From assembly GCA_905480405.1 (NCBI GenBank), contig CAJQQH010000003.1, positions 1-56,425 on the forward strand: 56,425 nt of DNA. The letters are read 5' to 3'. The position numbers and the translations under genes are program-made. The first letter of the stretch is position 1; every line of letters starts with the position of its first letter. The notes under the pieces are model-generated. The model did not search any database. It was not told the DNA's origin and saw only the letters and a list, made by a program, of their open reading frames with translations. Source of the DNA: an uncultured Polaribacter sp. (GTDB lineage Bacteria; Bacteroidota; Bacteroidia; Flavobacteriales; Flavobacteriaceae). Below, one piece after another: positions 8,674-44,824 of this stretch.

Positions 8674-8685
8674 ATTAAAACAAGA

Positions 8686-9216: not shown

Positions 9217-9247
9217 ACTAGTTAATACTTACGAATAAAATATATTT

Positions 9248-9278
9248 AAAACCTACTTTTTATAAGTAGGTTTTTTTA
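9248..9278 (+). terminator. intrinsic terminator
   Basis: AAAACCTACTT-tttat-AAGTAGGTTTT followed by T-tract. Confidence 0.8.
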
Positions 9279-9291
9279 TTTTTACGACTAT

Positions 9292-10089: not shown

Positions 10090-11069
10090 AACCCGCCAAA
10101 AGAAGTATTAATGTTAGGGCAAGCTGCAGCTCTTTGTTTTCTAGTCCAAAGGTTTATACCTAAAGAAATTTGATGAAAACCAGAACTAGAAAACACTACA
10201 TCATTCATTTGATTTGTATAGGTGTAAGAAAACATTAAATTTTGATAATTTAAACCTATAATTGGTGAAATAAATTGAGAGTTTTCTATTGCATTAGCAT
10301 CAAAACTTCTTCTATAAGATAATGCCGCCCAAAGTTGAGTTTGAGAAATGTTTTTATAAGCTTTAATGTTAAAATCTGCTATTCTTTCTCCAGTTCCTTC
10401 TTTAAACTGTAACATTACAGAAGGCTCAAATTGTACAAAAAGATCTTGTCCAAAATAATAACCAGCTGAAAATATATAATTTCTTAAATCTAAAGGTTCT
10501 AGAACGTTTAGATTATTTTTTGCAGTTAATAATAGATTTTTAACTGTAAAGTAAGAAGATAAACCACCTAAATGATAAGCTACACTAAAATCTGCATTAT
10601 AATAACTTGTGCTTTCAACAATTGCTGCTACTGCTCTATCTCCAGTAAAAGTTCTTTGATCAGATTGGTTTTGAACAAATGTAAAAGCTAAACCAAACGA
10701 AAGTTGGTTAAAAATGTTTGTATTACTTAATGGTAAATGATATGAATAAGAACCTTGAATTCCTTTTTGAGAATGAAAGCCGTTTTTATCATTAAAAAGG
10801 ACAAAACCATATCCTGCTCTAGACTCATCACTAAGTCTTGTATGAAAACTTATAGTCTGTAATTCTGGTGCGTTTGGTATACCAGCCCACTGTTGTCTTG
10901 CGGTAAACCTTAACTTACTAGAGTTACCTATACCTGCTGCAGAAGGATGAACTAAATACACGTTATCTGATAGATAATCTGTATAGATTGGTAATGTTTC
11001 TTGAGAATTACTATTTAAGGTAAAAAAGAAGAAAAACAATAAACAAAACTGTATGTAAATTAACTTCAT
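10086..11069 (-). CDS. PorP/SprF family type IX secretion system membrane protein
   Basis: YSDNVYLVHPSAAG... RQQWAGIPNAPELQTISFHTRL, LSFGLAFTFVQN; likely ATG at 11069 gives signal peptide MKLIYIQFCLLFFFFFTLNSNSQ (ORF track extends to 11132). Confidence 0.88.
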   Translation of the reverse strand: MKLIYIQFCLLFFFFFTLNSNSQETLPIYTDYLSDNVYLVHPSAAGIGNSSKLRFTARQQWAGIPNAPELQTISFHTRLSDESRAGYGFVLFNDKNGFHSQKGIQGSYSYHLPLSNTNIFNQLSFGLAFTFVQNQSDQRTFTGDRAVAAIVESTSYYNADFSVAYHLGGLSSYFTVKNLLLTAKNNLNVLEPLDLRNYIFSAGYYFGQDLFVQFEPSVMLQFKEGTGERIADFNIKAYKNISQTQLWAALSYRRSFDANAIENSQFISPIIGLNYQNLMFSYTYTNQMNDVVFSSSGFHQISLGINLWTRKQRAAACPNINTSFGGF

Positions 11070-11255
11070 TGAGGATTCTAATATTTTTGAGATTCCAAAT
11101 ATATTGTTTTTATAAGAATAAATACTTTTCAACTGAAAGATTTAACATTATTATTAAACAGAAAACTTATGGATTTATTATCCTCATTAAAAGTTATTTA
11201 ATATTCGTAAAGTAAACAATCGAAAAAAGGAAATTCTTTGTATTTATATCAATCT

Positions 11256-11954
11256 CTAATGGCAAGCATTTGTAGAAGAAACTAAATCTGTAATTGGTGC
11301 AGGAGAAATATAGGGAATTCCTAAACCAAGGCCTCTTAAAATAAACAATGCCCCAATAAAAATAACAAAAACAGGTATTATTTTTTGAATTTTTAACCTG
11401 AGATTACCTTTAGCAAAAGCCCCTAGATAAACTACTGCAGTCATAAGTGGAATTGTACCCAAACCAAATAAAAACATATATAAACTACCTTCATAAGCAT
11501 TAGAAGTTGCTAATGCTCCAAAAATTGCCATATACACTAATCCGCAAGGTAAAAATCCATTTAGAAAACCAATAGTAAAAAAAGTATCATTCCCTTTTTT
11601 CTTCAATTCATTTCCTAAATTATTTTTTATTTTTAAAATGACTTTACTAATTCTATTAGAAAAGCTAATTTTTTGAAATAACTTTGGAAATAGAATTACC
11701 AAAATCATACTAACACCAACCATTATAGATAACTGCTGTTGGAACCCAAAGAAATAAAAACCTTTTCCTAAAAGCCCGAATAATAAACCAATTAAACTAT
11801 AAGTAAGTAATCTACCAAAATGATAACTAAGTATTTGAAAGAATTTTTTTACGGGTTTATTTCTATCTACTGGCAACATAAAGGCTATTGGCCCACACAT
11901 ACCTATGCAATGGAAACTACCCAATAAACCAAATATGATTGCAGAAAGAAACAT
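11256..11954 (-). CDS. sulfite exporter TauE/SafE family membrane protein of cbb3 locus
   Basis: 232 aa; GLLGSFHCIGMCGPIAFMLPV, NGFLPCGLVYMAIFGAL. Confidence 0.88.
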   Translation of the reverse strand: MFLSAIIFGLLGSFHCIGMCGPIAFMLPVDRNKPVKKFFQILSYHFGRLLTYSLIGLLFGLLGKGFYFFGFQQQLSIMVGVSMILVILFPKLFQKISFSNRISKVILKIKNNLGNELKKKGNDTFFTIGFLNGFLPCGLVYMAIFGALATSNAYEGSLYMFLFGLGTIPLMTAVVYLGAFAKGNLRLKIQKIIPVFVIFIGALFILRGLGLGIPYISPAPITDLVSSTNACH

Positions 11955-22468: not shown

Positions 22469-23155
22469 ATGAACAAATGTTCTCAATGTATTGTACGTCA
22501 ATTTAGTTCTTTAAAGCATCTTACTAAAGAAGAATTACTGCGCGTTTCTGCTTGTAAAACCTCTAAAATCATTAAAAAAGGAGATTTTTTGTTTGAAGAA
22601 GGAGAACATATTAATGGGGTTTTTTGCATTAAAGATGGTGTTTGTAAAGTTTCTAAAATGAGTGAAAATGGTAAAAATCAGATTATTAATTTGATTAACC
22701 ATGGGAATATAATTGGTGAAAGAAGTTTAATTTCTAACGAAGTATCTAACTTAAGTGCAATTGCATTAAATGATATGACGGTTTGTTTTATTCCTAAAGA
22801 TGAAATTATGAAGGATTTAGAAATGAATACAGCATTTTCTTTTGATGTTTTAAAAACAATGGCAAATTCTTTAAAAAGTGCAGATAATTTAATTGTAGAT
22901 ATGGCACAGAAAAGTGTAAAACAGCGTTTAGCTGAATCTCTTTTAAATTTAAAAGAAAAATTTGGCACTACTAACCAAGGCGTTATAGACATTCATCTTT
23001 CTAGAGAAGATATTGCCAACATTATTGGTACTGCAACAGAATCTGCAATTCGATTACTTTCTGAACTTAAAAAGAAAGATATTATTGAGTTTAAAGGAAA
23101 AGATATTGTTATAAAAAACGAACAGGAATTAGAAAAAATTGCATACGGTTTTTAA
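22469..23155 (+). CDS. Crp/Fnr family transcriptional regulator
   Basis: 228 aa; N-terminal CSQC, cNMP-like beta-roll, HTH LSREDIANIIGTATESAIRLLSELKKKDII. Confidence 0.93.
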   Translation: MNKCSQCIVRQFSSLKHLTKEELLRVSACKTSKIIKKGDFLFEEGEHINGVFCIKDGVCKVSKMSENGKNQIINLINHGNIIGERSLISNEVSNLSAIALNDMTVCFIPKDEIMKDLEMNTAFSFDVLKTMANSLKSADNLIVDMAQKSVKQRLAESLLNLKEKFGTTNQGVIDIHLSREDIANIIGTATESAIRLLSELKKKDIIEFKGKDIVIKNEQELEKIAYGF

Positions 23156-23565
23156 CCAAATAAGTTATTTACTTTCGTTTTATACGTTTGCCCAATAGGA
23201 ATTTTATGTTCGTTGATAAGGATTCTATTTCCTTCTATCTGCTGAATTTTATTCTTTGAAACTATAAACGATTTATGAGTTCGTATAAAAGTATTTGGCA
23301 AAGATGCTTCAAAAGAGGATATTTTATCATTAAATAAAATCATTTTGTCCTTTAAATAAACTTTACAATAATGACCATAAGCTTCTAAAAACAAAATGTT
23401 ACTAAAATGAACTTGATGGTGTTTTTTATCACTCTTAATATAAATACTATCGGTGTTTAAACTAGAATTTGTGATTGCTATATTATGAGTTGGTGTTTGC
23501 TTGTTATTTAAATTTACAATAGTCTTATTTATTGCTTTTACAAAACGTTGAAAACTAAAAGGCTT
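23152..23565 (-). pseudogene. 5'-truncated LytTR response regulator (receiver domain missing)
   Basis: Open minus frame KPFSFQRFVKAINK...SDKKHHQVHFSNILFLEAYGH...EGNRILINEHKIPIGQTYKTKVNNLFG, homologous to the intact regulator at 23936-24640; homology stops at the K of the receiver KPF motif. Confidence 0.85.
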
Positions 23566-23919
23566 GCAGGTGATGATAAAACGATTAAGATTTGGGATAC
23601 ATCGAACTGGAAACTGTTACATACTTTAAAAGGTGAAAATCAAGCAATTCATTCGGTTATGTTTTTAGATAATAATAGGGTTTTTGCTGGCGGAACGGAT
23701 AAATCGATGGTAGGTGAAATATTAGAATACCATTTTAAATTTAATGGTCTTGTAAAACCTGTTATTGCTACACTTTGGGATGTGAAAAATGAAAAAATTT
23801 TACAGACAATTTCAAACCATACAGATGACATTGGTTTAGGTATGGACATTAGTTCTGATGGAAAACTATTAGCAACACCAAGTAAAGATAGAACTGTTAA
23901 AATTTGGAGTGTAAATTAA
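23563..23919 (+). pseudogene. 5'-truncated WD40 repeat protein remnant
   Basis: LAGDDKTIKIWDTSNWKLLHTLKG...ISSDGKLLATPSKDRTVKIWSVN; C-terminal WD40 repeats only. First residues of the track ORF (MKTKR) are antisense to the LytTR remnant. Confidence 0.8.
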
Positions 23920-23935: not shown

Positions 23936-24640
23936 TTAAGAATTTAAAAGCTTACTCACCCTACTTTTATAGGTTTGTCCAACCGGAATTTTATGTTCGT
24001 TGATTAGTATTCTGTTTCCTTCAATAAACTTAATTTTATCTATGGCAATAATAAATGATTTATGAACTCTTAAAAAATTACCATTTGTTAAAATTGCTTC
24101 GTAATGTGATATTTTTTCATGACTGACAATCATTTCATTAGTTAAAAAAAGTTTTGTGTAATTTCCGTATGCTTCAATATATAACAAATCGTTTAAATCT
24201 ATTTGATGGTGTTTTTTATCACCTTTCACAAAAAAACGAGTTGTAGATGAAGCATCATTAGAAACGTCTTTAATAACTGTTTTTGTAGGTTTATTTTCTG
24301 ATATCTTATTTACCGCTTTTACCAAACGATTAAAACTAAATGGTTTTAAAATATAGTCAACAACATTTAATTCAAATCCTTCTAAAGCATGTTCTTTATA
24401 TGCTGTGGTAATAATTGTTTTAGGAGGATTTGTTAATGTTTTTAGAAAATCTAACCCTCTTAATTTAGGCATATTGATATCTAAAAACATGAAATCAATT
24501 GTGTTTTCATTTAAAAACTGCATTGCCTCCATAGCATTATAACATTTTTTTTCTAATTGTACATGCGGCAACATACTACAAAACTCTTCAATAATTTCGT
24601 GCGCTAAAGGTTCGTCGTCTATGATAATATATTTAAGCAT
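23936..24640 (-). CDS. LytTR family response regulator
   Basis: MLKYIIIDDEPLAHEII, FLDINMPKLRGLDFL, YILKPFSF, LytTR LLYIEAYGNYTKLFL...RVHKSFIIAIDKI; start overlaps the kinase stop. Confidence 0.93.
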   Translation of the reverse strand: MLKYIIIDDEPLAHEIIEEFCSMLPHVQLEKKCYNAMEAMQFLNENTIDFMFLDINMPKLRGLDFLKTLTNPPKTIITTAYKEHALEGFELNVVDYILKPFSFNRLVKAVNKISENKPTKTVIKDVSNDASSTTRFFVKGDKKHHQIDLNDLLYIEAYGNYTKLFLTNEMIVSHEKISHYEAILTNGNFLRVHKSFIIAIDKIKFIEGNRILINEHKIPVGQTYKSRVSKLLNS

Positions 24641-25763
24641 GTTTAGCAATTTTTAAAGTTGTTTTATAGATGTTTTTTGTTGTTTCAACCTTTAATTCAT
24701 GATTGTTTTTATATAATAAAGCTAATCTTCTTTTTAGATTTATTAATCCAATTCCGCCAGATTCACTTTTTTCTATCTCGTCAAAATTGTTTTCAATTTT
24801 AAAATATATAAAGCTATCATCTTCAAACAAATCAATTTTAACAAAAGCATTTTCAGAAAGAGAATCTATTCCGTGTTTAAAAGCATTTTCTAAAAGGATA
24901 ATATATAATAATGGAGTAATTGTTAAACGAGTATCTATTATATAATTAAACGAGATCTCTACTGTTTTTTTATAACGTATTTTATGTAATTCTATATAGT
25001 TTTTTAAGTATTCTATTTCATCAGAAAGTGCAACCTTTTCTTTTTCTCCTTCATAAATAGTGTAACGCATCATGTCAGATAATTTTAAAATAACTTCAGG
25101 TGCTTGTTTTGAGTTTTTAATTGTTAAAGCGTATAAATTATTTAATGTATTGAAAAAAAAATGCGGATTTATTTGAGCCCTTAATAAAGATAGTTCTGCA
25201 TTCGATTTTTCTGCTTTTAAGTTCTGCAACCATTTCCATTGTTCAATAAGCCAAAGCATAAATAAAATAGGAATTGGTATAAAAAAAAATTTAAAAGGAA
25301 ACTCTTTTTTAATTTCTAAATACGTTTCTAATCCGCCAGTAAACAATCTCAAATACATGAAATATAGAAATATTGGAACATAAAAGAAAGCAATTACTTT
25401 CCAATATTTTTTAAAAAAAGTAGGTGCTAATAAATACGCGCTTCCAATCCAAAAACCAATTAATAAAATAAATGTAATTGGGTTGTCTGGTAGTTGCATA
25501 TATGTATCTATTGCTAATGCAATAAAAAATAAGACAAATAAAACAAATACACTAAGAGCTGTTTTCTTATTTCTTTTTAAATACTTATAATTATGAATAG
25601 GCAATGAAATTACCAATCCCCAAATAAATGCGAAAATAAAGATCTCAAAGGTTTTATCTTCAGGTAGAATAATTAGACTTAAATAGTCTAATAAATAGAA
25701 AATGGGAACTATAATAGAAAACCCAAATACAAAGGCTCGGTATTGTTTTAAAAACTGAATCAT
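24633..25763 (-). CDS. LytS/YehU-type sensor histidine kinase
   Basis: 376 aa multi-TM; AQINPHFFFNTLNNLYAL, LLENAFKHGID, GIGLINLKRRL. Confidence 0.92.
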   Translation of the reverse strand: MIQFLKQYRAFVFGFSIIVPIFYLLDYLSLIILPEDKTFEIFIFAFIWGLVISLPIHNYKYLKRNKKTALSVFVLFVLFFIALAIDTYMQLPDNPITFILLIGFWIGSAYLLAPTFFKKYWKVIAFFYVPIFLYFMYLRLFTGGLETYLEIKKEFPFKFFFIPIPILFMLWLIEQWKWLQNLKAEKSNAELSLLRAQINPHFFFNTLNNLYALTIKNSKQAPEVILKLSDMMRYTIYEGEKEKVALSDEIEYLKNYIELHKIRYKKTVEISFNYIIDTRLTITPLLYIILLENAFKHGIDSLSENAFVKIDLFEDDSFIYFKIENNFDEIEKSESGGIGLINLKRRLALLYKNNHELKVETTKNIYKTTLKIAKHA

Positions 25764-25937
25764 ATTCCAAAATTACCATTGTTCTATCGTTTTTGCAACA
25801 TTATTGATATACACTGTTAATTTTAAGTCAAACAAGGTCCTTTTTTAGATGAACCTTATTCAGCTAATATTTTAGTATATGTAACTTAATAATTACCATG
25901 TACAACATATTAGTTTTAAAACGTTTTCTTTCGTTTT

Positions 25938-25996: not shown

Positions 25997-27673
25997 ATGA
26001 AATATTTAAAAATAGTATTATTTAGTCTTTTAAGCATTTTCTCAGTAAGTGCACAAGAGACAATTCCGCAGCAAACAAAAATAGATGCCATTTTCTCTAA
26101 ATGGAATAATCCAAATACTCCTGGAGGAACTGTAGGAGTTATTAAAGAAGGAAAATTAATTTTTGCAAAAGGATATGGAATGGCAAACTTAGATTACAAC
26201 ATTCCTAATGGACCAGAAACTGTATTTAAAATTGCTTCTACTTCTAAGCAATTTACAGCAGCGAGTATTATTTTGTTATCACAACAAGGAAAACTTTCTT
26301 TAGATGATAAGTTGAGTACATTTTTTCCAGAATTTCCTTCGTATGCTAATGATATTACCATTCAACATTTATTAAATCATACAAGTGGTATTAGAGATTA
26401 TATAATTCTTGCTAGACTCTCTGGTTTAGGCGTAAATGATTACTATACTGATAAAACGGTTGGTAAGTTATTAATGAGTCAACAAGAATTAAATTTTAAT
26501 CCTGGAGAAGAATTTGTATATAGTAATTCTGGTTATTGGTTGTTGGGTCAAATTGTCGAAAAAGTAAGTAATGAAAGTTTGGCAGTTTTTGCAAAGAAAA
26601 ATATTTTTGATCCTTTGAAAATGAAAAACTCTCGTTTTCATGATAATTTTGTTGAGATTGTAAAAAACAGAGCAACTGGCTATAGATCAGATAGAAAAGA
26701 TGGGTTTCACCAATATATGACCACACTTAATATGGTTGGTGATGGTGGAGTAATAACGACTATTAATGATCTTGTTAAATGGGACGCTTCATTTTATGAT
26801 ACTTCAGTTTTTAATAAAGATTTTTGGAACCAAATGTTACAATTAGGAATTTTAAATAATGGTAAAAAAACACCATATGCTTCCGGTTTAGCATTTAGGA
26901 ATTATAAAGGATTAGAAGTAATTCATCATAGTGGTTCTTTTGTAGGATATAGAACGCAGTTTATTCGATTTCCAAAAGCAAAGTTTTCTGTGATTGCTTT
27001 AGCCAACAGAACTGATACTGATCCGTCAAAATTGGCTTATAAAATTGCTGATTTGTTTTTAGAGAATGAATACAAATCAAATAACACGATTAAAACAGAA
27101 AAGTCTGCGTCAAAAAAGAGTAGCAAAAAAGCAGTATTTGTTACGTTATCAGAAAAAGAATTGAAGGTTTTTGAGGGGAATTATTGGGATAATAAAAGTA
27201 AATCTAGTCGTAAACTTGTTGTACGTGATGGTATGTTAAATTATGTAAGAAGTAATGGGAAAGCTACTAAAATGCGACCAATAGCAAAAAATAAATTCCA
27301 AATGATTGGACCACGTGTTCCAGTAATACTAACAGTAAATTCTAAAGCTAATAATTTTAGTATTAAACTTCCAAATGCAACGCCAACATTTTTTGTTGCT
27401 TATCAACCAGTAACAACTTATAGTCAAGAAGATTTAAAAACATATTCTGGCGAATATTATAGTGTTGAATTAGATGTTGTTTATTCGTTAAAAGTTAAAA
27501 AAAATCGTGTGTTTCTTTTTGTAAAAGGTGATTCAGTTGGAGAAGTAACACCAATTAAAAAGAATTTACTAAACATTAATGGAAGACAAATATTTGAATT
27601 TAATGAAACAAGAAATGTATTTAGATTATCTATGTTAGGAAGGGTTAAAAATATAAAATTTGTTAAGAAATAG
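25997..27673 (+). CDS. secreted serine hydrolase (class C beta-lactamase fold)
   Basis: 558 aa; signal peptide; FKIASTSKQFTA (SxxK), YSNSGYWLLG (YxN), HHSGSFVGY. Confidence 0.92.
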   Translation: MKYLKIVLFSLLSIFSVSAQETIPQQTKIDAIFSKWNNPNTPGGTVGVIKEGKLIFAKGYGMANLDYNIPNGPETVFKIASTSKQFTAASIILLSQQGKLSLDDKLSTFFPEFPSYANDITIQHLLNHTSGIRDYIILARLSGLGVNDYYTDKTVGKLLMSQQELNFNPGEEFVYSNSGYWLLGQIVEKVSNESLAVFAKKNIFDPLKMKNSRFHDNFVEIVKNRATGYRSDRKDGFHQYMTTLNMVGDGGVITTINDLVKWDASFYDTSVFNKDFWNQMLQLGILNNGKKTPYASGLAFRNYKGLEVIHHSGSFVGYRTQFIRFPKAKFSVIALANRTDTDPSKLAYKIADLFLENEYKSNNTIKTEKSASKKSSKKAVFVTLSEKELKVFEGNYWDNKSKSSRKLVVRDGMLNYVRSNGKATKMRPIAKNKFQMIGPRVPVILTVNSKANNFSIKLPNATPTFFVAYQPVTTYSQEDLKTYSGEYYSVELDVVYSLKVKKNRVFLFVKGDSVGEVTPIKKNLLNINGRQIFEFNETRNVFRLSMLGRVKNIKFVKK

Positions 27674-27730: not shown

Positions 27731-27942
27731 TAATAAACATATTTAAAATAACTAGATCATCTTTTAAAGGTTAAAACTGTTTAAACAACAGTAAATTTTA
27801 TATAAACAACACGTTTTTTTAGTTGAACTTAAGATAGCTTAAAATTCAAGTTATCTGAATTGAAAAAAGTCTTGTTTATCATCTTTAATTTAAGGAAAAG
27901 TTAAAAAATTTCATATTTGTGTATAATTTAAAACATCAGAAA

Positions 27943-28827
27943 ATGAATACTTTAAAAATAAAAAACTTAACAAAAACATATCCCAATGGTGTAAAAGCAT
28001 TAAACGGAATTAGCTTAGAAATTACCAACGGAATGTTTGGATTGTTAGGAGCAAACGGAGCAGGAAAATCTTCTTTAATGCGAACAATTGCTACTTTGCA
28101 AGAACCCACTTCTGGAAGTGTTTCGTTTAATGATGTTGACATTATTGAAAAGCCAAATAACTTAAGAAAAGATTTAGGGTATTTACCGCAAGAATTTGGT
28201 GTATATCCAAAAATATCAGCAGAAAAATTGCTAGATCATTTAGCTGTTTTAAAAGGGATTTTAAATAAAAAAGAGCGCAAAAAACAAGTTACTGCTTTAT
28301 TACAGCAAGTAAATTTATATCAGCATAGAAAAAAATCGGTATTTACTTTTTCTGGTGGAATGCGTCAACGTTTTGGTATTGCACAAGCATTATTGAGCAA
28401 TCCACAAATTATAATTGTAGACGAACCTACTGCAGGATTAGATCCAGAAGAAAGCAATCGTTTTTTAAACTTATTAAGTGAAATTGGCGAAAATGTAATT
28501 GTTATTCTTTCTACTCATATTGTTGAGGATGTTAAAAATTTATGTCCAAAAATGGCAATTATGTCTAATGGTGAAATTATATCACAAGGAAATCCAAAAG
28601 AATTAGTGGCAAGTATTGAAGGGAAGATTTGGTCAAGGATTATTCCCAAAGCAGATATTGCTATATACAAAAATACATTTCAAGTAATTTCTACAAAATT
28701 GGTTGCCGGTGAAACTCAAATTAGAGTTTTATCTGACCATAAACCCGAAAGTGGTTTTGAAATGATTGCTCCAAACTTAGAAGATTTTTACTTCGCAACA
28801 TTGTTTAATCAAACTTTAAAAGCTTAA
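27943..28827 (+). CDS. ABC transporter ATP-binding protein (cassette A)
   Basis: GLLGANGAGKSSLMR Walker A, FSGGMRQRFGIAQAL signature, IIIVDEPTAGLDPEE Walker B; ATG at 27943 preferred over 27919. Confidence 0.94.
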   Translation: MNTLKIKNLTKTYPNGVKALNGISLEITNGMFGLLGANGAGKSSLMRTIATLQEPTSGSVSFNDVDIIEKPNNLRKDLGYLPQEFGVYPKISAEKLLDHLAVLKGILNKKERKKQVTALLQQVNLYQHRKKSVFTFSGGMRQRFGIAQALLSNPQIIIVDEPTAGLDPEESNRFLNLLSEIGENVIVILSTHIVEDVKNLCPKMAIMSNGEIISQGNPKELVASIEGKIWSRIIPKADIAIYKNTFQVISTKLVAGETQIRVLSDHKPESGFEMIAPNLEDFYFATLFNQTLKA

Positions 28828-28830
28828 ATT

Positions 28831-31800
28831 ATGTTTAAAAAATTAATCCAATTCGAAGTTTTTTATCAATTAAAACAAAGAGCATTTCCAATATTTGTAA
28901 CCTTATTTTTAGCATTAGGTGTATTTATTGGTAGACAAGGTTTTGCGCCTACAGGTGTTAATTTTAATGCTGTATATCAAGTTTATTTTTACACCAATAT
29001 AATTACTTTAGGAAGTGTATTTATAACTATGTTTTTTGCAATAAGTGCTATACTAAGAGATAAACAGCATAATATGGAGAGTTTAATTTACAGTTCTTCA
29101 ATAACCAAAGCACAGTATTTTTGGAGTCGTTTTTTAGGAACTTTTATTTTTAGTGTGTTGGCTTTTTCTCCTTTTCTTTTAGGATATTTCTTAGGAGTAA
29201 ACCTCTCAGATTTAGATCCAGAGCGTATCAATGAATTTCATATAATGACTTATCTACAGCCGTTATTATATATGGTAATTCCGAATATTTTCATTTGTTC
29301 TACAATTATTTTTTCTGTAAGTACAATCACAAAAAATAGTACAGCAACCTATGTAAGTGCCGTATTTATTTACATGCTGTATTTTGTGAGTTCTATTTTT
29401 TTAAACTCACCGTTAATGGCGCAATCTGTACCTGCATCATCAGAAAGTATGGCGATGGCAGCGATTGCAGATCCATTTGGAATTGCAGCTTTTTTTGAGC
29501 AAACACAGTATTGGACACCTTTTCAGAAAAACACACAGTTACTTTCGTTATCAGGATTGTTTTTAAAGAACAGAATTTTTTGGGTTCTTGTTTCTCTTGG
29601 TTTTCTGTTGGCTACTTATAAACTGTTTTCTTTCAGAAAAATCACTAAAAAAGTAAAAAAAGAACCAAAAATTAAAAATGTGAAACAAGAGTTATTGGCT
29701 TATAAACCAATAAAAGGATTGCATAATTTTAAAGCACAAAGACTAGCCTTTTTTGCATTGTTAAAAATAGAATTGAAAAGTGTTTTTAGGAGTTTACCAT
29801 TTATAGCAGTCTTATTGATGTGGATGTTTATAGTGTTCTCAGAGTTATATTCGTCTGTTATTGGAGGTGGAGAATATGGCGTAAGTGTGTATCCGTTTAC
29901 CAATAAATTAACCGAATTAATTGTAGGTCCGTTAACTATCTTTAGTTTGATATTGATCATTTTTTATAGCTCAGAAATTGTTTGGAAAGAACGAATCCTA
30001 CATTTTAATTTGATAATTGATGCGACACCTGTAAAAAATAGCACATTCTTTTTTTCAAAGTTTAGTGCTTTGATATTACTTCCAATAATTTTGATAACTG
30101 TTGGAGTTGTTCTTTGTATTGCATTTCAAATGGCTTTAGGATATTCTAATTTTGAATTCGGTTTATATGCATCATTATATTACCATTACGGATTGCAATT
30201 AGTCGTTTTTTGTATGATTGCTTTATTTGTTAATAGTTTGGCAAAGACTAAATATATGGGAATGGGAATTTTTGGATTGATTGTATTATTAACACTTAAA
30301 TCTGAAATGTTAGGATTAGAACATCCACTTACAAGTCTTGGTTTTTTACCAAGATTGGAATCTAATAATATGGATGGTTTCAACGGTGTTTCAAATTTAT
30401 ATAATCATTTAGCAATGTATTGGTTGGCTTTTGGATTGTTGTTAATTGTACTTTCTTTCAAAATTTGGAATCGTGGAATTATAGCTAGTTTTTCAGTAAA
30501 AGTGAAGCAGTTTTTTACAAATTGGACCAAGATTCAGAAATTGAGTTTCTCATTTTTAATGTTAATATTTATTGGTTTTGGAAGCTTGGTTTTTTACAAT
30601 ATAAATATCGTTTCTGAGTATAATACATCTAATGACAGATTAGATTTTAGCGAAAACTACGAAAGAAAATTCAAAAAATATCAAAAAGTAAAAAGAGTGT
30701 ATCCAACTTCAAAAAAGACAAAAGTTGATATTTACCCTAAAGAAAGAACTTACTTGTTAACTGCAAATTATATGATGATGAATCGTAGCGAGAAACCTAT
30801 GTCACATGTATTTGTTACAGAAAGAATGGCATTAGAATCTTTGCAAATAGAAAACGCTACATTAATAAAACACGATTCTGATTTTGGCACTTATCTTTTC
30901 GAATTTAATAACGCATTGCAACCAAATGATTCTGTTGTATGTAACTTTAAATTAATAAATAAAGTAAAAGGTTATGAAAATGACAATTCTATTGTAAACA
31001 ATGGAACGTATCTTAATCGTTTTAGAAATTTTGAACCAATTTTTGGGTATACAACTAGTTTTGAAATTTCGAACGCAAGAGAACGTCAAAAAAGGGATTT
31101 ACCAAAACGTATAGAAGAAGATGAAAGTTCTGATACGCATATTGCTTTTAAAGATGTTAAGTATGAAAAGATAAATTTCGAAACTATTATTTCAACATCA
31201 AACGATCAAACAGCTATTAGTTCTGGTAAATTAATAAAAGAATGGACAGAAAATAATCGAAACTATTTTTATTATAAGTCTAGTGTGAAAATTTCACCAG
31301 AAGTAGGGTATTTTTCAGCTAAATATAAAACTAAGAAAACAAATTATAAAGGTGTTGCTATTGAGCAATATTATGATGAAAACCACGATTTTAATATTGA
31401 TGATATTGAAAAAAGCATCCAAGAGACGTTAGATTACTGTCAAGAAAATTTTGGTGCATATCAATTTGATCACATAAGAATTGCAGAAGTGCCTGCACAT
31501 TGGCCTTTTGGTGGTTTTGCTCATCCTGGAGTTATTAGTATGGTTGAAGATAGATTGTATTTATCTGATGTTAGTAACGAAGATACTTTTAATGTGGTGG
31601 CTAAAAGAACCATTCACGAAGTAGCACATCAATGGTGGGGACACACATTATCTTCTAAACCTGTTGCAGGTGGTTCTTTTCTTGTTGAAGGACTTGCAAA
31701 ATATACAGAAGCTGTTGTGATGGAAAAAATGTATGGAAAAAGTGCTTTGTACACATTAGCGGAAGACACAAGAAGCAGGTATTTTTCTGGAAGATCTTTT

Positions 31801-32394
31801 GCTTCTGAAATTGAACCACCAGTTTATAAAGTAGACGGACAAAGTTATATTTCTTACGGAAAAGCATTAAATACACTATTAGCTTTAAGAGATTTAGTAG
31901 GCGAAAAACAAATAAATTTAGTCTTAAAAACGTTAACTGATACTTATAGAAATAGTAATAAATTAGAAGCAACTACGTTAGATTTCTTAAAAGAAATTTA
32001 TAAAATTACACCAACTCATCAGCATCATTTAATAGAAGATTGGTTTAAAAAAGTAATTACTTATGATTTAGGTATTGAAAATGCTACAACAAAAGCATTA
32101 GCAAACGGAACATTTGAAGTATCGATAAAAGTAATAGCAAAACGTTTAGAAACTTTAAATTCTGGAGAGGTAAAACAAATAGCAATAGATGAACCTATTA
32201 AAATTGGGTTGTTCTCTAAGCATCCATCAAATGTGAAAGATGATAGTTCGGTATTATATTATGAATCCAATAAAATCAATAAAGAAATAACTGAGATTAA
32301 AATTATCGTAAAAGAAAAGCCAAGTTATGTCGCAATTGATCCTTATGGAACACGAAGTGATGAAAATCTGGTAGATAATATTTTTCAATTATAA
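28831..32394 (+). CDS. ABC permease fused to C-terminal M1-family aminopeptidase domain (cassette A)
   Basis: 1187 aa: two multi-TM permease halves then a peptidase domain with TIHEVAHQWWGH and downstream VEGLAKYTE; 3 bp after the ATPase gene. Confidence 0.93.
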   Translation: MFKKLIQFEVFYQLKQRAFPIFVTLFLALGVFIGRQGFAPTGVNFNAVYQVYFYTNIITLGSVFITMFFAISAILRDKQHNMESLIYSSSITKAQYFWSRFLGTFIFSVLAFSPFLLGYFLGVNLSDLDPERINEFHIMTYLQPLLYMVIPNIFICSTIIFSVSTITKNSTATYVSAVFIYMLYFVSSIFLNSPLMAQSVPASSESMAMAAIADPFGIAAFFEQTQYWTPFQKNTQLLSLSGLFLKNRIFWVLVSLGFLLATYKLFSFRKITKKVKKEPKIKNVKQELLAYKPIKGLHNFKAQRLAFFALLKIELKSVFRSLPFIAVLLMWMFIVFSELYSSVIGGGEYGVSVYPFTNKLTELIVGPLTIFSLILIIFYSSEIVWKERILHFNLIIDATPVKNSTFFFSKFSALILLPIILITVGVVLCIAFQMALGYSNFEFGLYASLYYHYGLQLVVFCMIALFVNSLAKTKYMGMGIFGLIVLLTLKSEMLGLEHPLTSLGFLPRLESNNMDGFNGVSNLYNHLAMYWLAFGLLLIVLSFKIWNRGIIASFSVKVKQFFTNWTKIQKLSFSFLMLIFIGFGSLVFYNINIVSEYNTSNDRLDFSENYERKFKKYQKVKRVYPTSKKTKVDIYPKERTYLLTANYMMMNRSEKPMSHVFVTERMALESLQIENATLIKHDSDFGTYLFEFNNALQPNDSVVCNFKLINKVKGYENDNSIVNNGTYLNRFRNFEPIFGYTTSFEISNARERQKRDLPKRIEEDESSDTHIAFKDVKYEKINFETIISTSNDQTAISSGKLIKEWTENNRNYFYYKSSVKISPEVGYFSAKYKTKKTNYKGVAIEQYYDENHDFNIDDIEKSIQETLDYCQENFGAYQFDHIRIAEVPAHWPFGGFAHPGVISMVEDRLYLSDVSNEDTFNVVAKRTIHEVAHQWWGHTLSSKPVAGGSFLVEGLAKYTEAVVMEKMYGKSALYTLAEDTRSRYFSGRSFASEIEPPVYKVDGQSYISYGKALNTLLALRDLVGEKQINLVLKTLTDTYRNSNKLEATTLDFLKEIYKITPTHQHHLIEDWFKKVITYDLGIENATTKALANGTFEVSIKVIAKRLETLNSGEVKQIAIDEPIKIGLFSKHPSNVKDDSSVLYYESNKINKEITEIKIIVKEKPSYVAIDPYGTRSDENLVDNIFQL

Positions 32395-37356: not shown

Positions 37357-38448
37357 CTATTTGTTATCCGAATGCCATTTTGCCCAATCTTGCAAACTAC
37401 CGAATAAGACTTTTCTTCCAGCATCTCCGTTTGTAAGAATAATAATTCCAGATTTTGATGCAAAATCAAGCATAAACCCAGAGTGCCAACCTTCATTAGA
37501 ACCACCATGACCGTTTAAAGTAAAATCTCCAAAACGATTCATAGCCATATAACCCATTCCATAATTCCCTTTAGATAATTTAGTTGGAATAATTAAAAGG
37601 TTGATACTTTTTTGTGACAAAACATTATTCTCGCTAAAAGAAGCATTTGCAAAAAGAATAAGATCATTTAAGGTTGTGTGCAAACCTGCTGCTGCTTGTG
37701 CATTGAATAATCTTAACGGAATTTCTTTTGCATTTTCATCATAAGCTTTTGCTGATTTTTTTAAAATTCGTTTACTAATGGTAAAACTTGTGTGTTTCAT
37801 TTTTAAAGGTTTAAAAATATTTCTTTGCATATAATCTGCAAATGTTCTTCCTGTAATCTCTTCTATTACTAATTGTAAGATAGTGTAACCTCCACCAGAA
37901 TATTTAAACCTACTTTCTGGTTCCATAATTAACTTTACAGCTTCATCTGGATTTGTAATACCTGATAAAGATTTTACAGTTGATGTTAGCTCATTTTTAG
38001 TTTCATATCCGTTGTAACCATGTACAGATAAACCAGCTGTGTGTTGTAATAAATTTCTTATGGTTACTTTCTTTGAATTAAATTTACTAGAAGGCAATTT
38101 CCAACTTGAAATATAGTTTGAAGCAGGTGCGTCTAAATTAAGTTTTCCTTCTTCTACCAATTTCATTATTCCCCAAGCTGTAAACATCTTTGATATAGAA
38201 CCAATATTGAATCCTGTTGTAGAATTTACTTCAAGTTTCTTATCAACATTAGCATAACCATATCCTTTTTTAAGAATTACTTTACCATCTTTAATTACTG
38301 CGATAGCAATTCCTGGCACTTTATTTTTTTCTAAAGATTTAGGTGTACTCTCATCAAAAGACTTTTGCAAATTTTGAATTGAAGTATTTTGAGCATTTGT
38401 AAAAAAAATTGACAATGCCATTAAGATAATTGTAATAGGTGTTTTCAT
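37357..38448 (-). CDS. secreted serine hydrolase (class C beta-lactamase fold)
   Basis: MKTPITIILMALSIFFTNAQ signal peptide; NIGSISKMFTAWG, YSGGGYTILQ, NGHGGSNEGWHSG. Confidence 0.92.
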   Translation of the reverse strand: MKTPITIILMALSIFFTNAQNTSIQNLQKSFDESTPKSLEKNKVPGIAIAVIKDGKVILKKGYGYANVDKKLEVNSTTGFNIGSISKMFTAWGIMKLVEEGKLNLDAPASNYISSWKLPSSKFNSKKVTIRNLLQHTAGLSVHGYNGYETKNELTSTVKSLSGITNPDEAVKLIMEPESRFKYSGGGYTILQLVIEEITGRTFADYMQRNIFKPLKMKHTSFTISKRILKKSAKAYDENAKEIPLRLFNAQAAAGLHTTLNDLILFANASFSENNVLSQKSINLLIIPTKLSKGNYGMGYMAMNRFGDFTLNGHGGSNEGWHSGFMLDFASKSGIIILTNGDAGRKVLFGSLQDWAKWHSDNK

Positions 38449-38581
38449 TTTTATTTGTTTTATAATTTGATACAAACCTAAAACCCTATTCTTACTTCTT
38501 ATAAATAATTTGACGAACCCCGTTTTGTGTATGGCGTTCAGCTATTTATGATTTACAAAGTTACTTCACAAGCTAATTAAG

Positions 38582-38671: not shown

Positions 38672-39550
38672 ATGAATACACTCATAATTAAAAACGTAAG
38701 CAAAACATACCCAAATGGAGTTAGTGCGCTAAAAAACATCAACTTAACTATAACTAATGGAATGTTTGGTTTATTGGGTCCTAACGGAGCTGGAAAATCG
38801 TCTTTAATGCGAACTTTAGCAACTTTACAAGAATCTACACAAGGTAACATTAGTTTTAATGATATAAATAGTAACGACAATCCGCAAAACATAAGAAAAC
38901 AACTTGGGTATTTACCCCAAGAATTTGGTGTTTATCCTAAAATATCTGCGCTTCAATTATTAGATCATTTGGCAATATTAAAAGGTGTTTTAAATTCTAA
39001 AGAACGTAAAGAACAAATTGAAGCACTTCTTCATCAAACTAACTTATATGCGGTTAGAAAAAAAGCAGTTAGTACTTTTTCTGGAGGTATGCGCCAGCGT
39101 TTTGGTATTGCACAAGCATTACTTGGTAATCCTAAATTAATTATTGTTGATGAACCAACTGCCGGTTTAGATCCTGAAGAACGAAATAGATTTCATAATT
39201 TATTAAGTGATATTGGTGAACAAGTAATTGTTATTCTCTCTACTCACATCGTTGAAGATGTAAAAAATTTATGCAGTAAAATGGCAATTTTAGGAAAAGG
39301 TGAATTACTAGCACAAGGTGAACCTTCTAAACTAATATTAAATCTTGATGGAAAAGTTTGGTCTAAAACTATTTTGAAAGAAGATTTAGATTCTTTTAAA
39401 TCTAAATTTAATGTTTTGTCTTCTCGTTTGTCTTCTGGTAAACTAGAAATTAGAGTATTAGCAGACGCTCAACCAAAAGTTGGGTTTGTAGCTACCAAAG
39501 CAGATTTAGAAGATGTTTATTTTGCAACACTTAATCAAAAAAACATTTAA
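38672..39550 (+). CDS. ABC transporter ATP-binding protein (cassette B)
   Basis: 292 aa; GLLGPNGAGKSSLMR, FSGGMRQRFGIAQAL, LIIVDEPTAGLDPEE; closely similar to cassette A. Confidence 0.94.
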   Translation: MNTLIIKNVSKTYPNGVSALKNINLTITNGMFGLLGPNGAGKSSLMRTLATLQESTQGNISFNDINSNDNPQNIRKQLGYLPQEFGVYPKISALQLLDHLAILKGVLNSKERKEQIEALLHQTNLYAVRKKAVSTFSGGMRQRFGIAQALLGNPKLIIVDEPTAGLDPEERNRFHNLLSDIGEQVIVILSTHIVEDVKNLCSKMAILGKGELLAQGEPSKLILNLDGKVWSKTILKEDLDSFKSKFNVLSSRLSSGKLEIRVLADAQPKVGFVATKADLEDVYFATLNQKNI

Positions 39551-39554
39551 TACC

Positions 39555-42500
39555 ATGATTAATAAACTATTACAATTCGAATTAAAATTTCATAGTAAGC
39601 AAATATCTTTTATCATTTTATCGATTCTATTTACTGCTTACGGATTTTTAGCAATCAATCAAGGTTTTAAATATTTAGAATTTAGTTCTATGTATAACGA
39701 TGCTTTTAACCTTAGTTTTATATCAGGTATTGTAAGTATAGTATCAACATTTGCTACAGTCTTTCTTTGCATAAACGCAGGACTTCGTGATAAGTTATTC
39801 AATTTTGAAGGCCTTGTTTTTAGCACAGGTATTAAAAAATTGAATTTCTTTTTAAGTCGGTTTTTAGGAGTATTTTTAATCATACTTTTATTAAATACAA
39901 TTGCTATGTTGGGTGTTTTTATTGGCACTTGTATTAATAGTTTAGATCCAGAAACTTTACATCAATTTAATTTTACACATTATTTTTGGCCTTGGTTATT
40001 ACTTATTTTACCAAATGTATTTGTAACTACAGTTATCATTTTTTCGACAACCTTACTAACAAAAAAAACGATTGTTACCTATATTACAGCTTTAGTTTTT
40101 ATTGCTATTAATTGGGTTTGTGGCTTCTTTATTAACTCACCTTTATTTGGAGGCTCATCTTTAGCATCAAAAGAAATATTAGACATTGCATCATTGATAG
40201 ATCCTATTGGATTGGCTGCCTTTTTTGAGCAAACACAATTCTTAACTCCTCTTGAAAAAAATGATATGGTTTTATCATTATCAAATAATTTTCTTTGGAA
40301 TAGAGCTATTTGGTTAAGTTTTAGCATCATTTTATTATTAATCACTTACAAAAAGTTTTCTTTTAGAGCTATTCAGAAAAAGGTAAAAAAACAAGTTACA
40401 TCCGAAGAAAATAAAAATAGTAACTCAACTTATAAGCCAACTGAAATATCAATAAATTCATTTAAATCGATGTTAGTTAACCTTAAATCGGTTGTTAAAC
40501 TAGATGTACAAATAATTCTTAGCGGAATCCCTTTTAAACTGATTATGATATTATGGTGTATTATTCTTTCTTTAGTATTTAATTATAGTATATCTAGTAA
40601 AGAAATATACGGAAGCCGCTACCCTACAACAGATTTATTTATTGGTCAAGCTATAGAAGTATTGCCAATTCTTGGATTATTTTTAATCGTTTTTTACAGT
40701 AGCGAATTGGTTTGGAAATCTAGACAACATCGTTTTTCTGGAATTATTGAAGCAACACCAAGTAGAAATAGTATGTTTTATACTTCAAAAATTATAGCTA
40801 TATCTATAATACCTATCGTTTTAATTTTATTGACTATTGCGGTTTCTTTAATATTTCAAATCACAAATAATTACTACGATTTTCAATTGCACCAATACTT
40901 TTCATTATGCTATTATGCTGGTGTACAAATTATATTATATGCTATTTTTTCTTTATTCATTCAAACCATCGTATCCAATAAGTATTTAGGAATAATTATT
41001 TCTGCTCTTATTCTAATATTCTTTACTGCTTCTAGAAGTGTTTTTGGGTTAGAACATCCGTTATTCTTTTTTAACAAATTACCAAGTATGGCAAGATCAT
41101 ATTCAGATTTTGTAGGATATGGTCAATATGTTTCAAAATTTAATACACTTGCCTTGTATTGGATAACCTTTTCTGGAGTACTAATTGTATTAAGTAATAA
41201 GTTTTGGAAACGAGGTACATCAGTAGAATTTAAGAAAATTATTAAAACAGTTTTCAATAAAAAAGAGAAACTACAATTAATAAGTTTAGTACTTATGTTT
41301 GTTACTATTGGTAGTTATGCATATTACAATTTGAATATAGTTAATGATTACGTTACTAGTAACGAAAGGCTTGATTTTAATGAACAATATGAACGAAAAT
41401 ATAAAAAATACGATCAACTTGCTGTTCCTCAATTAGTGTCTTTAAAAACGAATATAGATATCTATCCAAATTCAGAAAAGTATAATGTACAGTCAAATAC
41501 AATCATAGCAAACAAGACCAAAAAACCTATGAAAAATATTTTTGTAACGGTACCACAACCTTTAAAATCAATTAACATTGAAGGTAGTAAACAAATATTT
41601 TATGATGCCGTTTTAGGTACATATTTGTTTGAATTAAATGCGCCACTTTTTCCTGAAGAATCTCTTAAAATGTCTTATACCATGGAAAAAAAAGTAAAAG
41701 GATTTGAAACAAATAAAACGATAAACAGCAACGGAACTTATATTAAAAACCAAAATTTTAATCCGATTTTAGGCTATGTAAATAATTACGAAATTGAATA
41801 TAATTATGAGCGTTTACAACGTGGATTACCTAAAAGAGATAGCGTAATAGTAGATGAAAGTTATTTGCAATTGGATAGTAAATTTAATTTTGAGAACATA
41901 AAGTTTGAAACCATTATTTCTACTTCTAAAGAGCAGACAGCTATATCGTCAGGAAGTTTAATAAAACAGTGGCAAAAAGATGATAGAAATTATTATCATT
42001 ATAAAGCTTCTGATACCATTAATAGTATGGTTGCTTATTTTTCTGCTCGCTACACCGTAAAAAAAGAAGTCTATAAAGGAATTAAATTAGAATTGTTCCA
42101 TCTTCCTAATCATACACAAAATGTAGATGAAATGATGAGAGTTGCAAAAAAGACAATTGATTATTGTTCTGATAATTTTGAAAAATATCCTTATGATTAT
42201 TTACGTATTGTAGAAACATCAAACCACGATAGTTCTAATGGTAAAGCAATGCCAGGAGTTATTACTATCAATGAAAAAATATTTAAACGTAATGTAGAAA
42301 ATTTAGATTCATTTAATGTTGTTGCAAGAGTATTAATTCATGAAATATCTCATCAATGGTGGGGATTTTTATTAACTCCAAAACGTGTAGAAGGTTATAT
42401 GGTTTTGTCTGAATCATTCGCAAAGTATACAGAAAGTATTGTTCTTGAAAAAATGTACGGTAAAGCGATGGCAAACAAACTATCTGTAAGTACAATTAAT

Positions 42501-43124
42501 AAATATTTTAGTGGAAGATCTTATGCATCAGAAATAGAACCATCGTTATACTTAAGTAATCATCAAGCTTATTTAGGATACAGTAAAGGTGCTATTATAA
42601 TGTCTGCAATTAAAGAATTAATAGGTGAAAAAAAATTGAATAAAGTATTAAAAAAACTAGTTGATGATTACCAAAACAAACCTGTTGCAACTACATTAAA
42701 CTTAATGGAAGAATTATATAAAGTAACACCAAAAGAGCATCACAAATTAATAAATGATTGGTTTAAAAAAGTAATTACTTACGATTTAAAAATAACGAAC
42801 TCTGTATATAAAAAGATGCAAGATGGTAAATATGAACTTACAATAACAGTTAATACTAAGCGTTTTGAAACTAATTCTTTAGGCGAAGAAGTTGAAATTA
42901 ATATTGATGAACCAATACATATAGGTGTCTTTAAAAAGCACCCAAATGTATTAAATAATCACAAAGATATTAGGTATTTAAAACCACATCAAATCAATAA
43001 TAAAGAAACAAAAATTAAAATTATTACAGATTTTGAACCGATTTATGTTGGAATTGACCCCAACAACAATAGGTTAGATAAAAATCTAGAGGATAATTTC
43101 ATTTCTTCACAACAATTTAATTAA
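39555..43124 (+). CDS. ABC permease fused to C-terminal M1-family aminopeptidase domain (cassette B)
   Basis: MINKLLQFELKFHSKQ... with ATG at 39555; same architecture as 28831-32394; LIHEISHQWWGF, SESFAKYTE. Confidence 0.93.
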   Translation: MINKLLQFELKFHSKQISFIILSILFTAYGFLAINQGFKYLEFSSMYNDAFNLSFISGIVSIVSTFATVFLCINAGLRDKLFNFEGLVFSTGIKKLNFFLSRFLGVFLIILLLNTIAMLGVFIGTCINSLDPETLHQFNFTHYFWPWLLLILPNVFVTTVIIFSTTLLTKKTIVTYITALVFIAINWVCGFFINSPLFGGSSLASKEILDIASLIDPIGLAAFFEQTQFLTPLEKNDMVLSLSNNFLWNRAIWLSFSIILLLITYKKFSFRAIQKKVKKQVTSEENKNSNSTYKPTEISINSFKSMLVNLKSVVKLDVQIILSGIPFKLIMILWCIILSLVFNYSISSKEIYGSRYPTTDLFIGQAIEVLPILGLFLIVFYSSELVWKSRQHRFSGIIEATPSRNSMFYTSKIIAISIIPIVLILLTIAVSLIFQITNNYYDFQLHQYFSLCYYAGVQIILYAIFSLFIQTIVSNKYLGIIISALILIFFTASRSVFGLEHPLFFFNKLPSMARSYSDFVGYGQYVSKFNTLALYWITFSGVLIVLSNKFWKRGTSVEFKKIIKTVFNKKEKLQLISLVLMFVTIGSYAYYNLNIVNDYVTSNERLDFNEQYERKYKKYDQLAVPQLVSLKTNIDIYPNSEKYNVQSNTIIANKTKKPMKNIFVTVPQPLKSINIEGSKQIFYDAVLGTYLFELNAPLFPEESLKMSYTMEKKVKGFETNKTINSNGTYIKNQNFNPILGYVNNYEIEYNYERLQRGLPKRDSVIVDESYLQLDSKFNFENIKFETIISTSKEQTAISSGSLIKQWQKDDRNYYHYKASDTINSMVAYFSARYTVKKEVYKGIKLELFHLPNHTQNVDEMMRVAKKTIDYCSDNFEKYPYDYLRIVETSNHDSSNGKAMPGVITINEKIFKRNVENLDSFNVVARVLIHEISHQWWGFLLTPKRVEGYMVLSESFAKYTESIVLEKMYGKAMANKLSVSTINKYFSGRSYASEIEPSLYLSNHQAYLGYSKGAIIMSAIKELIGEKKLNKVLKKLVDDYQNKPVATTLNLMEELYKVTPKEHHKLINDWFKKVITYDLKITNSVYKKMQDGKYELTITVNTKRFETNSLGEEVEINIDEPIHIGVFKKHPNVLNNHKDIRYLKPHQINNKETKIKIITDFEPIYVGIDPNNNRLDKNLEDNFISSQQFN

Positions 43125-43142
43125 TCTTTAATATTTTTGAAT

Positions 43143-44129
43143 ATGACATTAAAAAGAAGATTTTACTTAACATCTTTTGTTGCAGCTATTTTTGGCGTTT
43201 TAAGTTTCTTTTTTAAAGATGAACAGAACGAAATTCCAATAATTTTAAACATGTTATTGGGTGGCACAGTTCTATATATATTGTTCTTCTATTTATTAGA
43301 AACGGGTAAACTAAAAACGAGTTGGACAAAACCCTTTTATAGAAATATTTTTTATGGGTTAACTATATTGGTTCTAATTATTAGTATTACTCTAGCTAGT
43401 AAAATTGATGAAAACGGAGATAGTTTATGGGTTGTAAATTATAATATTTGGTTATTTGATTTACTTGTATTTCTATTAATTTCGTTTATTTTTTATATTG
43501 TTTTCTCTTGGTTTTTTGAAAGATGGAAAGCAGTTAAAACATTAAAAAATGAAAAATCGAAAGCAGAATTATCGTTATTAAAAGAACAAATAAATCCTCA
43601 CTTCTTTTTTAACACATTAAATAATTTATATTCTTTAATAAAAAAAGACCCAGACGCAGCGCAAGAATATGTTTTAAAATTATCCGATTTAATGCGCTTT
43701 ACCATTTACGATAGTGGAAAAGAAAGTGTAATTTTAGGAGATGAAATTAATTATTTAACTAATTTTATAGATTTACAAACCTCTAGATATCATAAAGAAA
43801 TTGAGATTAGTTTTGTAAAAGATGTTGAAAATCTAAATACCAAAATTGCGCCTTTGTTGTTAATTATTTTATTAGAAAACGCCTTTAAACATGGTGTAGA
43901 AAAATTAACAGAAGACACTTTTATAAAGGTAGAATTAAAAGAGAATAATGATACTATTCATTTTTCGGTTGTAAATAATTTTGATAAAAATGAGTCTTCA
44001 AAAATAAGAGGAATTGGGCTAAAAAATTTAAAAGAACGTTTAGAATTAGTGTATCCCAATAAGTACAATTTATCGCATAAGATCGAAAATAACATATATT
44101 CTGCAACATTAGAAATACTTAAAAAATGA
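43143..44129 (+). CDS. LytS/YehU-type sensor histidine kinase (cassette B)
   Basis: KEQINPHFFFNTLNNLYSL, LLENAFKHGVE, GIGLKNLKERL. Confidence 0.92.
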   Translation: MTLKRRFYLTSFVAAIFGVLSFFFKDEQNEIPIILNMLLGGTVLYILFFYLLETGKLKTSWTKPFYRNIFYGLTILVLIISITLASKIDENGDSLWVVNYNIWLFDLLVFLLISFIFYIVFSWFFERWKAVKTLKNEKSKAELSLLKEQINPHFFFNTLNNLYSLIKKDPDAAQEYVLKLSDLMRFTIYDSGKESVILGDEINYLTNFIDLQTSRYHKEIEISFVKDVENLNTKIAPLLLIILLENAFKHGVEKLTEDTFIKVELKENNDTIHFSVVNNFDKNESSKIRGIGLKNLKERLELVYPNKYNLSHKIENNIYSATLEILKK

Positions 44130-44824
44130 TAAAATATATAATTGTAGATGATGAAACAGCATCGCACGATATTATAAAAGATTATGCTAATAATCTTTCT
44201 TATTTATCGTTTCAAAAAAGTTGTTTTAATGCTTTTGAAGCTATCGAGTATTTGAATAACAATTCGGTTAATCTTATTTTTTTAGACATTAATATGCCTA
44301 AACTTTCTGGTTTAGATTTTTTAAAAACGCTTTCTAACCCTCCTAAAATTATTATTACAACTGCTTATAAAGAATATGCTTTAGAAGGTTATGAGCTAAA
44401 TATTTCTGATTATTTATTAAAACCATTTAACTTTTTACGTTTTGTAAAAGCAGTTAATAAAGTGTATGATTTATCTGCAATAGCTTCAGATTCTTTTCAT
44501 GTACAAGACTCTTTAAAGGATGCAAAAATTTTTATAAAAGATGATAAGAAACATCGCCAAATTACTTTAAGTAATATTCTTTTTATAGAAGGTTATGGAA
44601 ATTATGTAAAGATTCATATGATTGATAAAATGATTGTTTCTCATCAAACTTTATCATCATTTACAAATATCTTACCTGAAAATCAATTTATGCAAGTTCA
44701 TAAATCGTTTATTATTTCAAAAGATAAAATAGATTTAATTGAAGGTAACAGAATTAGCATTCAACAACACAACATTCCTATTGGGAAGGTTTATAAAATG
44801 AATGTAAATAAAATGATTAAATAG
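44126..44824 (+). CDS. LytTR family response regulator (cassette B)
   Basis: 232 aa; YIIVDDETASHDII, FLDINMPKLSGLDFL, YLLKPFNF, LytTR domain; ATGA overlap with kinase. Confidence 0.93.
   Translation: MIKYIIVDDETASHDIIKDYANNLSYLSFQKSCFNAFEAIEYLNNNSVNLIFLDINMPKLSGLDFLKTLSNPPKIIITTAYKEYALEGYELNISDYLLKPFNFLRFVKAVNKVYDLSAIASDSFHVQDSLKDAKIFIKDDKKHRQITLSNILFIEGYGNYVKIHMIDKMIVSHQTLSSFTNILPENQFMQVHKSFIISKDKIDLIEGNRISIQQHNIPIGKVYKMNVNKMIK

Follow-up and report, generated by a model that had tools for sequence, protein, structure and literature searches.

Introduction

Several described systems each share part of their design with the locus examined here, a 56,425-nt stretch of DNA from an uncultured Polaribacter sp. 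(contig CAJQQH010000003.1; hereafter the window, with coordinates counted from its first letter) in which two gene cassettes each encode an ATP-binding cassette (ABC) ATPase followed by a single polypeptide that joins an ABC-2 permease to an M1-like zinc peptidase domain. The phenol-soluble modulin exporter PmtCD has an amphipathic peptide as its substrate, and PmtD matches the second permease half of the fusion; PmtD is, however, a single half-permease without a peptidase. In NosDFY, whose role is copper-related, NosY matches the first permease half and works with an extracytoplasmic partner, but NosD is a separate protein and not an M1 peptidase, unlike the fused ectodomain. Taken by itself, the permease is closest in fold to a mycobacterial ABC drug efflux pump (8k1m–8k1p), which we take to be Rv1217c–Rv1218c; the chain of this pump, about 510–530 residues long, is too short to include a peptidase ectodomain or a thirteenth helix like those of the fusion, and the identity is about 11%. 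Peptidase-containing ABC exporters (PCATs) carry a cytoplasmic cysteine peptidase, whereas that of the fusion is predicted to be a zinc enzyme and to lie across the membrane, outside the cytoplasm. The M1 aminopeptidases ERAP2, IRAP, PepN and LTA4H share with the ectodomain the fold, the HExxH motif, the Glu that acts as third zinc ligand and the catalytic Tyr; unlike these enzymes, the ectodomain lacks the Glu of the GXMEN motif, has a ligand spacing of x19 rather than x18, ends after its C-terminal beta domain and is fused to a transporter. Finally, BceRS–BceAB likewise places a two-component pair, with a sensor poor in extracellular sequence, beside an ABC transporter. The likeness is one of logic only; BceB is an FtsX-type permease, and BceS and BceR belong to kinase and regulator families other than LytS and LytTR.

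Our computational analyses establish the architecture and the predicted topology of the fusion, its fixed ATPase partner, a conserved set of zinc ligands with catalytic Glu and Tyr, purifying selection and, in one clade, a LytS/LytTR pair with candidate operators. We tentatively propose that the system is an ABC-2 exporter carrying, on the outer face of the membrane, an M1-fold zinc peptidase that would cleave a probably peptidic substrate as it is pumped out. No paper describing a permease–M1 fusion was found in the open-access literature (subscription journals lay mostly outside the search), no NCBIfam model describes the fusion, and Pfam recognizes it only in separate parts. All of its modules come from known families, and the M1 part is already in database annotation; it is the combination that is unusual.

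Results

Two cassettes in the window encode an ATPase and a permease–peptidase fusion

In cassette A, the ABC-2-type ATPase gene (27943–28827, Pfam ABC_tran 4e-30; an alternative GTG start is open at 27919) encodes, by reading, a complete set of motifs: Walker A (GANGAGKSS), signature (FSGGMRQR), Walker B (IIVDEPTAGLD) and H-loop (STHIVED). The fusion gene (28831–32394, 1187 codons for amino acids) starts 3 bp past the ATPase gene, and all genes of both cassettes lie on the forward strand. Its permease part (28831–30528) consists of two ABC-2 halves of six transmembrane (TM) helices each, at about residues 1–267 and 318–566, with a basic, predicted cytoplasmic linker between them. A thirteenth TM helix (residues 567–594) and a further helix (600–617), together encoded by 30529–30681, are predicted to lead out of the membrane into the M1-like ectodomain (30682–32391), which comprises an N-terminal beta domain (about residues 618–850), a catalytic domain (851–1075) and a C-terminal beta domain (1076–1187). 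Because the chain stops after the C-terminal beta domain, fusion A has no helical cap domain. Pfam placed ABC2_membrane families at residues 50–193 and 245–496 (PF12698 scored above its cut-off, the second permease half below) and Peptidase_M1 at 864–1060 (2e-13); the locus thus has the composition of an ABC-2 (type V) transporter, an ABC ATPase together with ABC2_membrane permease halves.

A preliminary description of this DNA had proposed the same pair of genes with the same 3-bp gap, two multi-TM permease halves and a C-terminal HEVAHQWWGH motif followed by a later Glu, all of which were borne out, the Glu being E953. Its label of cassette A also implied a second cassette, and we located one, cassette B, with an ATPase gene recognized by Pfam (38672–39550) and a fusion gene (39555–43124; 1189 residues from the given start) whose product keeps HEISH-x19-E and the Tyr and lacks GXMEN. 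The two fusions are 42% identical, and although the permease of cassette B has no Pfam ABC2 match, it aligns end to end with fusion A. Two further fusion copies, each with a homologous ATPase gene directly upstream, lie on other contigs of the source genome, which therefore holds four cassettes in total.

The earlier proposal that transport and peptidase modules form a single chain agrees with the layout common to 76 aligned homologs and with an AlphaFold2 model, built on the 76-sequence alignment, that covers the whole chain of fusion A with a predicted local distance difference test score (pLDDT) of 90 and a predicted template modelling score of 0.89. The ratio of nonsynonymous to synonymous substitution rates (dN/dS) was about 0.1–0.25 in every computable domain, for comparisons within a set of close Tenacibaculum relatives as well as of these with cassette A, and the permease and peptidase modules are both under purifying selection. 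Taken together, the shared layout, the whole-chain model and the low dN/dS in both modules argue that the fusion is no accident of reading frame. On a Sphingomonas plasmid (L006, 8001–11589), the fusion is encoded in two overlapping frames (8001–9830 and 9604–11589), reflecting either a frameshift or a natural split.

The fusion is widespread and keeps its ATPase partner

Matches were found in 70 of the 297 sampled Bacteroidota genomes; by reading, about 65 of these are the fusion, the others being fragments or soluble M1 enzymes. A collection scan gave at least 80 loci, and the counts that follow refer to these 80 listed matches, which come from Bacteroidota, Balneolota, Pseudomonadota, Acidobacteriota, Planctomycetota, Bdellovibrionota and one actinobacterial metagenome-assembled genome. 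The distribution is wide but patchy. In 76 of the 80 loci, an ATPase gene immediately precedes the fusion gene on the same strand; in one it lies directly downstream and in one 967 bp upstream. The remaining two end at a contig edge just upstream of the fusion and were excluded as untestable. Co-occurrence of the fusion with an adjacent ATPase, which had been set in advance as a test of the proposal, therefore holds in all 78 testable loci.

As to the identity of this ATPase, the suggested kinship with GldA did not survive comparison with the equivalog model (177.3 and 163.9 bits; cut-off 402.6), and assignment as a DrrA-type drug-resistance ATPase was rejected likewise (183 and 173.1 bits against 312.45). 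Two other candidate classifications of the system were dropped: a phage or viral origin, the fusion being found in none of the viral contigs scanned, and a defence system, PADLOC having returned generic ATPase matches only and none for the fusions.

The ectodomain keeps M1-type zinc ligands and lacks the aminopeptidase anchor

The M1 model PF01433 scored 50.8 and 67.5 bits (gathering cut-off 27.7) and matched all 24 diverse ectodomains checked. In fusion A, the HEVAH motif (31615–31629), which supplies H929, E930 and H933, forms the start of HEVAHQWWGH (residues 929–938; 31615–31644); the third zinc ligand is E953 (31687–31689; H933-x19-E), and the equivalent of the catalytic Tyr is Y1009, in a Y-x-K motif (31855–31857). 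By alignment, H929, E930, H933, E953 and Y1009 are invariant in 76 of 76 members. Because the collection scan had selected on HEx[AS]HQWW, so that conservation of HExxH there is not independent of the filter, we rechecked the motif in loci from a whole-protein search made without a motif filter, and found it in 29 of 29. The Glu follows the second His at x19 in 74 of the 76 members and at x20 in the other two, compared with x18 in ERAP2. Of two other Glu residues, E906 is the counterpart of the Glu in the YRE element of ERAP2 and so is not new, whereas E886 is invariant across the family at a position where ERAP2 has no Glu.

In M1 aminopeptidases, the Glu of GXMEN binds the substrate N-terminus. 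None of the 76 aligned members has a Glu at this position, and GXMEN occurs in none of the 29 unfiltered matches; FAQ[AS]FP usually stands in its place, GGFAHP (31510–31527) in cassette A. Relatives are named "M1 family aminopeptidase" in databases, and the preliminary description also spoke of an aminopeptidase. With the anchoring Glu missing family-wide and the spacing at x19 rather than x18, the sequence does not establish that label. Some form of peptide cleavage by the ectodomain is likely, and exopeptidase activity is uncertain. The open GXMEN position suggests that a free N-terminus is not needed, and the ectodomain may thus cut internally or accept blocked peptides.

The peptidase is predicted to face outward

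In Foldseek searches the ectodomain matched the M1 folds of ERAP2, IRAP and PepN (E about 1e-19 to 1e-17). Hydropathy and the model agree on 13 membrane helices in the fusion. Over the 76 members, the cytoplasmic N-terminus and two predicted cytoplasmic loops carry net positive charge (+2.0, +5.9 and +4.3), whereas most of the predicted outer loops have no net charge or a negative one. From the odd number of helices and this family-wide positive-inside pattern, the ectodomain is predicted to sit outside the cytoplasm, as had been proposed; the prediction that would have refuted this, a cytoplasmic M1 domain, was not obtained.

Residues 1–618, modelled separately (pLDDT 88), matched the mycobacterial efflux pump best (8k1p; E 3e-4, template modelling score 0.65 by target length), followed by NosY, ABCG transporters and PmtD; in profile searches the first permease half found NosY (3e-5) and the second PmtD (5e-5). 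The closest relative of the ATPase in the PDB is ABCA1. This last resemblance, together with that to NosY, whose partner and target are both periplasmic, and with the wide but patchy distribution, would fit a role in envelope maintenance, in which an extractor of lipids or proteins or a force transmitter, similar to NosDFY or ABCA proteins, works with an M1 domain whose targets are proteins or peptides of the envelope, xenobiotics playing no part. Against this stand the conserved catalytic set, which argues for a genuine peptidase, and the fact that the best fold match of the whole permease is a drug pump; we regard such a role as unlikely.

No biosynthetic or resistance gene recurs beside the fusion

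Pooled Pfam scans of 185 neighbouring proteins revealed no other recurrent family, none occurring in more than three loci; peptides shorter than about 110 amino acids were omitted from these pools, so that a small precursor could be missed. The scans bear on the possibility that the system exports and matures a product of the cell itself, a peptide or lipopeptide (a signal, a bacteriocin-like molecule or an envelope factor) that would be trimmed on exit. The coupling of a peptidase to an exporter, the resemblance of one permease half to the modulin exporter PmtD and the multiple paralogs per genome would all suit this explanation, but no biosynthetic or precursor-like partner recurs in the pooled neighbours, within the size limit given, and we consider it rather doubtful.

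A distant homolog on a Zymomonas mobilis plasmid (L009, 7368–10484) has REMGR in place of HExxH and is likely a pseudoenzyme version; its neighbours are its ATPase, a TonB-dependent receptor and two ABC half-transporters. These neighbours of a degenerate copy are what speaks for a nutrient or siderophore function, in which a peptide-like ligand would be processed or recycled together with outer-membrane receptors. Since no TonB receptor recurs near catalytic members, a function of this kind appears very improbable.

Among other candidate partners, only an esterase with PF00756 and TPR domains recurs, with homologs in six of the fusion loci; in three of these (L039, L045 and L061) its gene comes immediately after that of the fusion. 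Two beta-lactamase-fold (PF00144) hydrolases flank the cassettes in the window (25997–27673 and 37357–38475). One had been put forward as part of the system, a candidacy we rejected: no homolog lies near any other copy of the fusion, and the hydrolases are local to the window.

A LytS/LytTR pair accompanies the cassettes of one clade

Upstream of cassette A, on the reverse strand, lie genes for a LytS-type histidine kinase with a hydrophobic N-terminal half (24633–25763; His_kinase PF06580), whose homologs are divergent from the ATPase gene, and for a LytTR response regulator (23936–24649; Response_reg and LytTR domains by Pfam). A second kinase–regulator pair, again identified by Pfam, lies directly downstream of cassette B on the forward strand (43137–44824); PF06580, Response_reg and LytTR are thus present at both 23936–25763 and 43137–44824. 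Such a pair adjoins the cassette in 24 of 84 other loci examined, in addition to both cassettes of the window. On the tree the label is strongly clustered, requiring 7 changes compared with 20.2 in shuffles (0 of 500 shuffles were as low), and it is carried by 18 of the 20 rows of the window's clade, in most members of which the kinase gene is divergent from and immediately upstream of the ATPase gene. LytS/LytTR, which the preliminary description had named as a divergent neighbour, is accordingly a real partner, mainly in this clade; the association does not extend to most other members of the family.

A gapped-repeat search of 14 promoter regions, some from close relatives, identified a direct repeat, tGAtgAACAc, with 21-bp spacing (motif score 142, compared with 110–125 in 12 simulated sets), and 21-bp direct repeats fit known LytTR operators. 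Three such repeats, with AAC cores 21 bp apart, lie upstream of the cassette A ATPase gene (27782–27830, forward strand) and three more, also 21 bp apart, between the kinase gene and the beta-lactamase-fold gene (25805–25856, forward strand); both sets are candidate LytTR sites. In the window's clade, the cassette would be induced through LytS/LytTR. The hydrolase gene at 25997–27673 is itself preceded by 21-bp repeats and may therefore answer to the same regulator.

Other genes of this type occur in the same genome. In a third of its cassettes, of which there are four (L004, 1–200, reverse strand for the kinase), a LytS-type kinase is again divergent from the ATPase gene. The window contains a third LytS/LytTR pair (50572–52219), followed by a PF00756 esterase with TPR (52382–53560). 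An 80-residue open reading frame (ORF; 23152–23394, reverse strand) resembles LytTR regulators in their C-terminal part only and lies next to a short WD40-like ORF (23548–23919); the two are probably what is left of additional such genes.

Discussion

In the mechanism we propose, one polypeptide would provide both permease halves and, by way of the thirteenth helix, position a peptidase at the outer surface of the inner membrane, with a dimer of the neighbouring ATPase driving the pump. The ATPase cycle would move a substrate outward from the cytoplasm or the inner leaflet, a direction suggested by the transporter family, and the ectodomain would cleave the emerging substrate or a peptide bound to it. 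Both the peptide nature of the substrate and the coupling of cleavage to export are suppositions of the model.

For the window's clade, our leading guess at the likeliest use is that the LytS kinase senses membrane-active peptides, which the pump and its peptidase would then remove and destroy, a guess prompted jointly by LytS/LytTR with its largely hydrophobic sensor, the partial resemblance to PmtD and the presence of a peptidase. Detoxification by a Bce-like logic, as the preliminary description had it, is an inference of the same kind; with regard to the permease, all Pfam matches are to ABC2 families and none to an FtsX-type protein with a large extracellular loop, as in BceAB.

Four observations weigh against an exporter that cleaves peptides as it expels them. 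The resemblance to PmtD and to NosY is weak, each match covering just one half-permease; no resistance or biosynthesis gene recurs nearby in the pooled neighbour scans; the LytS/LytTR neighbour is missing from most members outside the window's clade; and the loss of catalytic residues in the Zymomonas homolog indicates that transport can persist without peptidase activity. With most of the family lacking LytS/LytTR, sensing of peptide stress cannot define it, and the general role may be wider.

A more specific version of our proposal, which we put forward as speculative and on balance improbable, is that these proteins form a class of transporters, found widely, whose built-in extracytoplasmic zinc peptidase is no aminopeptidase: with the anchor for the N-terminus lost, the M1 fold would act as an endopeptidase and cut membrane-active or exported peptides on expulsion, and in one clade the transporter would also inform LytS/LytTR. 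Database names cover only the aminopeptidase half of the fusion, under a label that its sequence makes doubtful. The fusion itself, carried by roughly one in five of the Bacteroidota sampled and present in several further phyla, couples transport and proteolysis, uncommonly, in one polypeptide.

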